This document shows, piece by piece, positions 32,430 through 34,152 of a stretch of 47,841 nucleotides of DNA; position 1 is the stretch's first letter; each line of letters opens with the position of its first letter. The DNA comes from Chloroflexota bacterium (lineage in GTDB: Bacteria > Chloroflexota > Dehalococcoidia > Lucifugimonadales > Australimonadaceae). Where the stretch lies: contig VXQP01000105.1 of assembly GCA_009838965.1 (NCBI GenBank), positions 1 to 47,841 on the forward strand. Direction: 5' to 3'. The notes beneath the pieces are model-generated. The model was not told where the DNA came from. It saw nothing but the letters and a program-made list of their open reading frames with translations, and searched no databases. A program made the position numbers and the translations under genes.

Positions 32430-32635
32430 GACCTGACCCTTACACAGCCGATTCGTGCCAACCGGCGCGAGCATACACCCCGGTCATGGGCGCCACAAGG
32501 AACGGTGCCGTGTGTTCGCCCAGAAGCACGTGAGGCAGGGCCCCCGTCCCCTTTGCACAACCCGTCCCTCACCCCTGTACCACAGGCGACGGTGACACCT
32601 GGCCCTTACGCAGTCGTGCTCCAACCGCGTACGCT
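32430..32635 (+). repeat. Imperfect direct repeat in the dehydrogenase intergenic region
   Basis: Two related blocks begin ACCTGACCCTTACACAGCCG (32431-32450) and ACCTGGCCCTTACGCAGTCG (32597-32616). They differ at 3 of 20 positions, and both are followed within a few bases by CCAACCG. The spacing is 166 bp. Function is unknown; they could be duplicated binding sites or remnants of a duplicated promoter of the leftward dehydrogenase. Confidence 0.5.
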
Positions 32636-32737
32636 GGTTCCATGACTGTCGTACCGGCAACACTCATAGATTGCGTCTATGGCTCTCAGGCTCAGCTATC
32701 GACGGAGTCTATAGCTCCGGCGCAAAACTTGTTTTCG

Positions 32738-32889
32738 TTGGCCACCTTGTTCAATTTTCGCGGGAAGCAGGTCGTGGCCTTGCACACAGCGGCACAAGGT
32801 GGCCAAGGTGGCCAAATCGAATGGACGATTTACTCGTAACGCCGGCAACAAGGTGGCCAGAATTCTCCCTGGTGGGCCACCTTGTTCAA
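32738..32889. repeat. Cluster of inverted and direct GGCCACCTTGTT repeats
   Basis: GGCCACCTTGTTCAA occurs at 32740-32754 and 32875-32889. The reverse form (A)ACAAGGTGGCC occurs at 32794-32804 and 32847-32858, and AAGGTGGCC again at 32805-32813. The pair 32847-32858 / 32875-32886 is a perfect 12-bp stem with a 16-bp spacer. The cluster ends 40 bp before the -35 of the rightward promoter. Confidence 0.75.
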
Positions 32890-32928
32890 GATGAGGTCGC
32901 GTCGGCTGCTGGACACACGCGTTAAACA

Positions 32929-32957
32929 TTGACCCTCTCTCCCGCTGGGGGTATCTT
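32929..32957 (+). promoter_or_regulatory. Sigma70-like promoter of the dehydrogenase-Rieske operon
   Basis: TTGACC (32929-32934), a 17-bp spacer and TATCTT (32952-32957), among the better matches to consensus in the window. The leader to the ATG at 33031 is about 65 nt. Confidence 0.65.
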
Positions 32958-32965
32958 GTCGGCGT

Positions 32966-32987
32966 ACGTGTCCGCACGCGGACGCGT
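32966..32987 (+). promoter_or_regulatory. Inverted repeat at the predicted transcript start
   Basis: ACGTGTCCGC / GCGGACGCGT separated by 2 bp, matching at 9 of 10 arm positions. It begins about 8 bp after the -10, where a repressor would block initiation; as RNA it could also form a 5' hairpin. Confidence 0.4.
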
Positions 32988-33030: not shown

Positions 33031-34152
33031 ATGGCAGAGAAGGCACTGGTTTCAGCGAAGGTGGGCCCGAACCAGACCGAGCAGATGGAATTTGATCTGC
33101 CGGACATCCCGGTAGACGGCGCGCTTCTGAAGGTAGAGGCGGCGGGAGTCTGCGGCAGCGACGTTGGCGGTTACGAGCGGGAGATGAGCGGGGGCCCGGT
33201 CATCATGGGTCATGAGAACGTCGGCTACCTCGCGAAGGTCGGCCACGTCTTTGCGAACCGCTGGGGCGTGAAGGAAGGCGACATGGTCGCATTGGAGGAG
33301 TACCTCCCGTGCGGTCGCTGCGAGTTCTGCCGCGTCGGCGAGTACCGCCACTGCTTCGCCACCGACGCTTCCGCGAACGCCTCCGCCATCCGCTACGGCT
33401 CGACGTCTGTGGAAGTGGCACCGTCACTGTGGGGCGGCTACGCGCAGTATCTCTACGTTCCCCCGAACGCGCCGCTGCACAAGGTACCTGACGGCATCAC
33501 GGCCGAGGAGGCCGCGATGGCCCTGCCCATGGGCAACGGGATCCAGTGGGCACTCATCGAGGGCCAGGTCGGCTACGGCAAGAGCGTCCTCATCCAGGGG
33601 CCCGGCCAGCAGGGGCTTGCCTGCGTCGTTGCGTCGAAGCAGGCGGGCGCAGATTGCATCATCATCACCGGCAAAGGCGCAAAGGATGCCCGGCGGATGG
33701 AGGTTGCACGAGCCCTCGGCGCCGATTTCACTATCGATATCGACGAGGAAGACCCGCTCCCCCGTATCAAGGAGATAACCGGCGGCGGACCGGAAGCCGG
33801 TGTGGACGTGGTCGTGGACTGCACCTCCCATGCAGGTAAGGGGCCGACGCTCCTCGCCATCGAGGCGACGAAGCGCAAGGGCGGCAGGATGGTCGCGCAG
33901 GCGGAAGCCCCGATCTTCCCTGACTTCCCCATCGGCAGGCTCACGCGCAAGTACATGACCCTGGCCAGCGCACGCGGCCACAGCTTCGAGGCGGTAGAGC
34001 TTGCACTGCGCCAGATCGCGTCGCACCGCTTCCCGCTCGAGCTCATGCGGACGCACACGTTCGGGCTGGTGGATGTCCACACCGCCATCCGGGCAGTGGC
34101 CGGAGAGGGCTACGACGACGCCATCCACGTATCCATCCTTCCCTGGGAGTAA
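33031..34152 (+). CDS. Zinc-dependent medium-chain alcohol dehydrogenase (Rieske-linked subgroup)
   Basis: 373-aa NAD(P)-dependent dehydrogenase. Catalytic zinc: Cys41 (GVCGSD) and His61-Glu62 (MGHENVG). Structural zinc: C94-x2-C97-x2-C100-x7-C108. Cofactor loop: QGPGQQG. ATG follows GGAGGCGAGGCGCG. The product closely parallels that of 8198-9295, including RWGVKEGD and the [17 protein letters not shown] / TTDVWPSIWGGFSQYMY block. In both places the partner gene is a Rieske oxygenase, but the gene order is reversed (here dehydrogenase first). Transcribed from a clear promoter with an inverted repeat at the transcript start, it seems independently regulated. A role coupled to the Rieske product is inferred. 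Confidence 0.9.

Follow-up and report, generated by a model that had tools for sequence, protein, structure and literature searches.

The window analysed here, a stretch of 47,841 nucleotides from a Chloroflexota bacterium, contains a dense array of short inverted repeats (32738-32887) just upstream of the promoter of an alcohol dehydrogenase (ADH) gene, which raises the question of what the repeats are and whether they belong to that gene. The initial annotation had offered three options, namely a multi-site operator, a folded DNA or RNA element, and the scar of a mobile element. The last comes closest, although the end that we found looks intact rather than scarred, and the idea of multiple binding sites also survives. 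We read the genus as SAR202 Chloroflexota, taking its sponge association from isolate names.

The repeat array and the unit that contains it

The array holds five copies of GGCCACCTTG in alternating orientation, three of them extended by TT. Exact matches to GGCCACCTTGTT lie at 32740-32751 (+), 32847-32858 (-), and 32875-32886 (+), and matches with one or two mismatches at 32793-32804 (-) and 32802-32813 (-). When 10-mers were scored in 250-bp windows tiled over the contig, allowing at most one mismatch, one 10-mer had five placements in the window of the array, compared to one to four in 381 tiled windows. The five-copy array described initially is thus upheld, as is its perfect 12-bp stem, which corresponds to an inverted pair with a 16-nt loop (I4); two further perfect pairs (I1 and I2) reach 13 bp. 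Across the 3.0-Mb genome, exact GGCCACCTTGTT is confined to the three array copies and one isolated match on C4.

A blastn search of the genome with positions 32630-32930 returned 18 matches. We retrieved ~70 copies across genomes and aligned them to locate their edges, which are sharp: conservation runs from (G/C)(T/C)GACA to ..CTT(G/A)NTC and the flanks are random. The unit begins at 32592, and the array is its right half (Table 1). Within the element the order is left end, TACGCT, ATG, short hairpin, word A, box GGGAAGCAGGCCRYGGCCT, B1'B2', TTTACTCGTAA, C', and D. The ATG (32642) follows TACGCT by 6 nt, the spacing of a leaderless start, and is where the ORF of longer copies starts. A conserved small protein in solo, ORF-less copies (ATG...TAA, 65 aa in the window) was rejected, as most copies either interrupt this frame or have a different one. 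The box CGGGAAGCAGGYCRYGGCCT is still recognisable in a 49%-identical subfamily.

Table 1. Features of the element and of the adjacent host gene
Feature	Coordinates	Strand	Basis
Complete solo (ORF-less) element copy, 296 bp	32592..32887	+	edges from aligning ~70 copies
Left end GTGACACCTGGCCCTTACGCAGTCG...TACGCTG	32592..32636	+	pattern search; common to elements of five species
Conserved TACGCT, putatively -10-like	32630..32635	+	alignment
Short hairpin CATAGATTGCGTCTATG, kept in solo copies	32665..32681	+	copy alignment
Word A TTGGCCACCTTGTTC	32738..32752	+	word matches and copy alignment
Near-palindromic conserved box CGGGAAGCAGGYCRYGGCCT	32761..32780	+	nearly invariant among copies
Words B1'/B2' ACAAGGTGGCCAAGGTGGCCA, tandem, 9-bp period	32794..32814	-	word matches and copy alignment
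Conserved spacer GATTTACTCGTAA	32827..32839	+	copy alignment
Word C' AACAAGGTGGCCA	32847..32859	-	word matches and copy alignment
Word D GGCCACCTTGTTC, right edge of the element	32875..32887	+	word matches and copy-edge alignment
Promoter TTGACC-17-TATCTT of the host ADH gene downstream	32929..32957	+	9/12 consensus match
Zinc-binding alcohol dehydrogenase family protein, 373 aa, host gene	33031..34152	+	Pfam ADH_N, ADH_zinc_N

The promoter and the palindrome that had been grouped with the array are both present, the former by its consensus match and the latter as GTCCGC-AC-GCGGAC at 32970-32983, just past the ADH promoter, but both fall outside the element. Promoter-like sequence similar to 32929-32957 also occurs in relatives that lack the element (G001 and G003), and hairpin-forming variants of the palindrome are found at the equivalent place in G004 and G001. 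Judged by these comparisons, neither the promoter nor the palindrome that follows it depends on the element, and the palindrome resembles an operator or leader feature of the host. An operator specific to ADH was rejected in view of the dispersed copies and of the species without the element. What stands of the operator option is the behaviour expected of multiple protein sites; the sites are the element's own and not those of the ADH promoter.

Dispersal of the element

Five of the six species in the genus carry elements of the type seen in the window, at ~14-17 copies per genome. No member of this family was found by blastn in G001, and other genera gave very short matches only. A search with the left-end pattern returned 43, 62, 51, 29, and 53 matches in five genomes and 3 in G001, with a control count of 0. 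The search of the genome and its relatives that the initial annotation had proposed therefore revealed not a word confined to this spot, or scattered at random without conservation, but an entire element dispersed in many copies at many sites.

Occupancy of individual sites differs between species. The lysA site carries an element in G005 that is absent from G003, G000, and G004; the nadK site is occupied in G003 and not in G000; and the secA site has a 1.8-kb copy in G004 that is missing from G003 and G005. Presence and absence were read from orthologous genes, and owing to intergenic divergence the empty sites are not base-exact. The ADH site is occupied in G000, G004, G002, and G005. Because several sites are common to several species, many of the insertions are likely to be old. 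Upstream of nadK, L227:2220-2480 (G004) and L228 (G005, reverse) share the left end but carry other words (TGAGCAG.. and TGGCTCA..), pointing to a larger superfamily of elements. At lysA, elements with different words from two species (L221 and L089) lie within ~10 bp of one place, which suggests that a preferred target was hit independently or that one element replaced another there.

Terminal inverted repeats were not detected across copies (mean 5.96/20 identities, chance ~5-6), target-site duplications of k = 2-8 were no commoner than in permuted flanks, and no transposase or integrase was found between the element ends, where an ATPase is the sole gene found. The argument for mobility is therefore made by presence/absence and dispersal. 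The array is one end, the right one, of a small mobile-type element present in scattered copies.

ATPase-bearing copies and copy-specific words

Long copies of ~1.75 kb have a single ORF of 511-544 aa between the same ends. The same right end directly follows such an ORF at ~10 loci; among those examined, five share the left end as well. In the main subfamily the box of the array is 20-58 nt past the stop codon. Each genome of the five species has between three and eight matches to this ORF. The copy in the window is best read as an ORF-less derivative of this longer element.

The encoded protein combines a zinc-finger-like N-terminus with a RecA/DnaB-like ATPase domain and ends in a winged helix. 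Its profile matches (AAA_25, E 1.7e-14; a weak DnaB-like PHROG match, 8.7e-8) are of the RecA/DnaB-like class and include no known transposase and no SaPI Rep or Cch2 family; no primase or polymerase was found in the element. The whole-protein model was poor (pLDDT 54) and the fold search was run on the C-terminal domain, which models as a winged helix: its arrangement is helix-helix-helix-strand-strand (core pLDDT ~88-94) and Foldseek ranks PadR/MarR-type winged helices as its best matches (prob ~0.99, E 0.025). In four of the long copies (L142, L143, L144, and L146), REP-like palindromes ATTCCCGCGAAGGCGGGAATCC lie in frame within the ATPase ORF (SVIPAKAGIQS), and such palindromes are also close to many element edges and flanks. 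A large serine recombinase gene apparently interrupts the ATPase gene at the same point (..GAVFPAHMKAL) in L145 and L150. We rejected it as the element's own recombinase, as it appears to interrupt the gene in G002 only; it is probably another element.

Short inverted or direct repeats also follow remote ATPase genes (L187 and L190; G014 and G027), and likewise a similar gene on the gut scaffold MT839352, so the pairing of gene and array predates the genus. MT839352 (L240, 2290-3390 for the ATPase and its 3' repeats) is a human-gut scaffold labelled as phage; it has a relaxase-like motif (HMDEETPHIH) at the end of the record and seems to be a mobilizable element and not a phage.

Each copy of the element has its own word, which it uses at all five positions. 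Among ORF-bearing copies the word is, for example, GCACACCTTGTTC in L144 and GGCACTCTTG in L141; the exact word of the window is absent from the ORF-bearing copies examined in its own genome, GCACACCTTGTTC being the closest. Complementarity between words on opposite strands was far greater within a copy than between copies (z of -12.5 for A:B, -9.6 for C:D, -10.4 for A:C, and -10.1 for B:D), and same-strand pairs had no own-copy excess. Among ten full-length copies, word distance was correlated with winged-helix distance (Mantel r 0.72, p 1e-4) and not with distance in the N-terminus (-0.10) or the ATPase core (-0.16); with 17 C-termini the correlation of word and C-terminus was r 0.59. Such covariation would be expected if a binding domain and its sites co-evolve. 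Joint exchange of gene end and array as one module by recombination could also produce it.

Interpretation and comparison with known systems

We consider it probable that the five words are iteron-like sites for the cognate ATPase, in a Rep-helicase/origin-type module of a mobile-type element. The array is read as iteron-like because its anatomy matches that of initiator-helicase/iteron modules (SaPI Rep, SCCmec Cch2, and pRN1), and the reading builds on dispersal, sharp edges, presence/absence between species, coherence of words within copies, covariation of word and winged helix, and the 3' repeats of relatives. The ATPase would bind the five words as double-stranded DNA through its winged helix and, once loaded at the array, would open the DNA. 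By analogy with SaPI Rep/ori or SCCmec Cch2, the array would then be an origin-like or processing end from which the element replicates and moves, and solo copies would be served by ATPase supplied in trans.

Under another explanation, the copies form a dispersed structured-RNA family, either an sRNA or a leader, transcribed from a promoter of its own at TACGCT, and the words are covarying stem helices. The conserved -10-like start, the strong covariation of opposite-strand words, and the aim of solo copies at downstream genes would suit such an RNA, as would the predicted fold of the array as RNA, which beats most shuffles (z -2.6; as single-stranded DNA it beats 200/200, z -4.1). Against this, wobble pairs are not favoured among the mismatches of the putative stems, with G:U against A:C counts of 22 and 20 for A:B, 23 and 28 for C:D, 19 and 20 for A:C, and 21 and 35 for B:D, which suits a DNA word better than RNA stems and disfavours RNA helices as the cause of the covariation. 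All four opposite-strand pairings covary, as one binding word predicts, and the words follow a DNA-binding-type protein domain. The genes downstream have no common theme, and the Rfam 15 covariance models gave no match in the window. The folded-RNA option of the initial annotation is accordingly disfavoured, and we regard an RNA family as unlikely.

Domesticated cis-regulatory elements, kept upstream of promoters to control the adjacent gene, would account for the placement of solo copies, which usually lie just upstream of another gene's promoter. With orthologous sites collapsed, 32/35 distinct sites point at a codirectional gene (32:3, p 4e-7), and in tandem regions alone 16/17 solo sites point at the next gene (16:1). 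Some sites, such as the ADH site, are also common to several species. The strength of this bias hints at an additional part for regulation or selection. The same bias could arise if an inward-reading element promoter were selected against, however, and the genes concerned are functionally unrelated (leuS, idh, lexA, ADH, and dioxygenases). The ADH gene does without the element in G001 and G003, and the word changes between orthologous copies, so that we find control of adjacent genes quite improbable as the main explanation. An ordinary MITE moved by a DDE-type transposase encoded elsewhere, with the ATPase as a passenger, would have similar size, copy number, and dispersal, and a left end common to many families. 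With inverted repeats at chance level, no target duplication for any of the lengths examined, and only the ATPase gene found between the ends, this is very unlikely.

Returning to the iteron-like reading, a bolder proposal is possible but doubtful: that these elements are a new class whose sole gene, a RecA/DnaB-like initiator ATPase, reads copy-specific iteron ends by its winged helix. Such an element might spread without a conventional transposase, possibly by replication from its end, and seed dozens of ORF-less copies upstream of promoters while word and winged helix co-evolve. No description of these elements or of this compact arrangement was found in the open-licence literature searched. 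If the iteron-like reading is right, one ATPase gene plus iterons would be a minimal Rep-origin module acting like a transposon, with 30-60 related left ends per genome across a sponge-type SAR202 Chloroflexota genus. The word/winged-helix pairs of the copies offer a ready set for testing initiator-site co-evolution, and an element without a transposase poses the question of how such elements move.

Hairpin-forming ends without terminal inverted repeats recall REP/BIME-RAYT and IS200/IS605 elements, from which ours differs in having no HUH (Y1) transposase, a word that varies over most of its length, and five repeats. Like bacterial MITEs and small intergenic repeats (e.g. RU-1/RU-2; PMC10969869, PMC2759123), the solo copies are short, dispersed, intergenic, and ORF-less with defined ends. 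The terminal inverted repeats, target-site duplication, and transposase-bearing full-length partner of classical MITEs or DDE insertion sequences are lacking here, however, and the long partner encodes an ATPase. The structured repeat region 3' of a gene resembles the pRN1-family replicon of Sulfolobus, which requires a stem-loop region immediately after the 3' end of its replication-protein gene; pRN1 is a plasmid with another replication protein and no dispersed chromosomal copies described there (PMC4234260). The closest likeness in anatomy is to SaPI Rep-ori and SCCmec Cch2-ori, in which an ATPase/helicase gene with a C-terminal DNA-binding-type domain is directly followed by short repeats, the iterons to which the C-terminal domain of Rep or Cch2 binds (PMC7581432). 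The staphylococcal helicases occur in single copy, on large islands that also encode an integrase or recombinase and in most cases a primase. Our element, by contrast, is multi-copy and ~1.75 kb long, has no gene besides that of the RecA/DnaB-like ATPase, and exists in many copies without the ORF. The element nevertheless has the marks of a Rep-helicase/iteron module, an ATPase gene with a C-terminal domain and downstream repeats that covary with the winged helix only, and we read it as working like the SaPI Rep/Cch2 modules, a likeness that we draw from anatomy.
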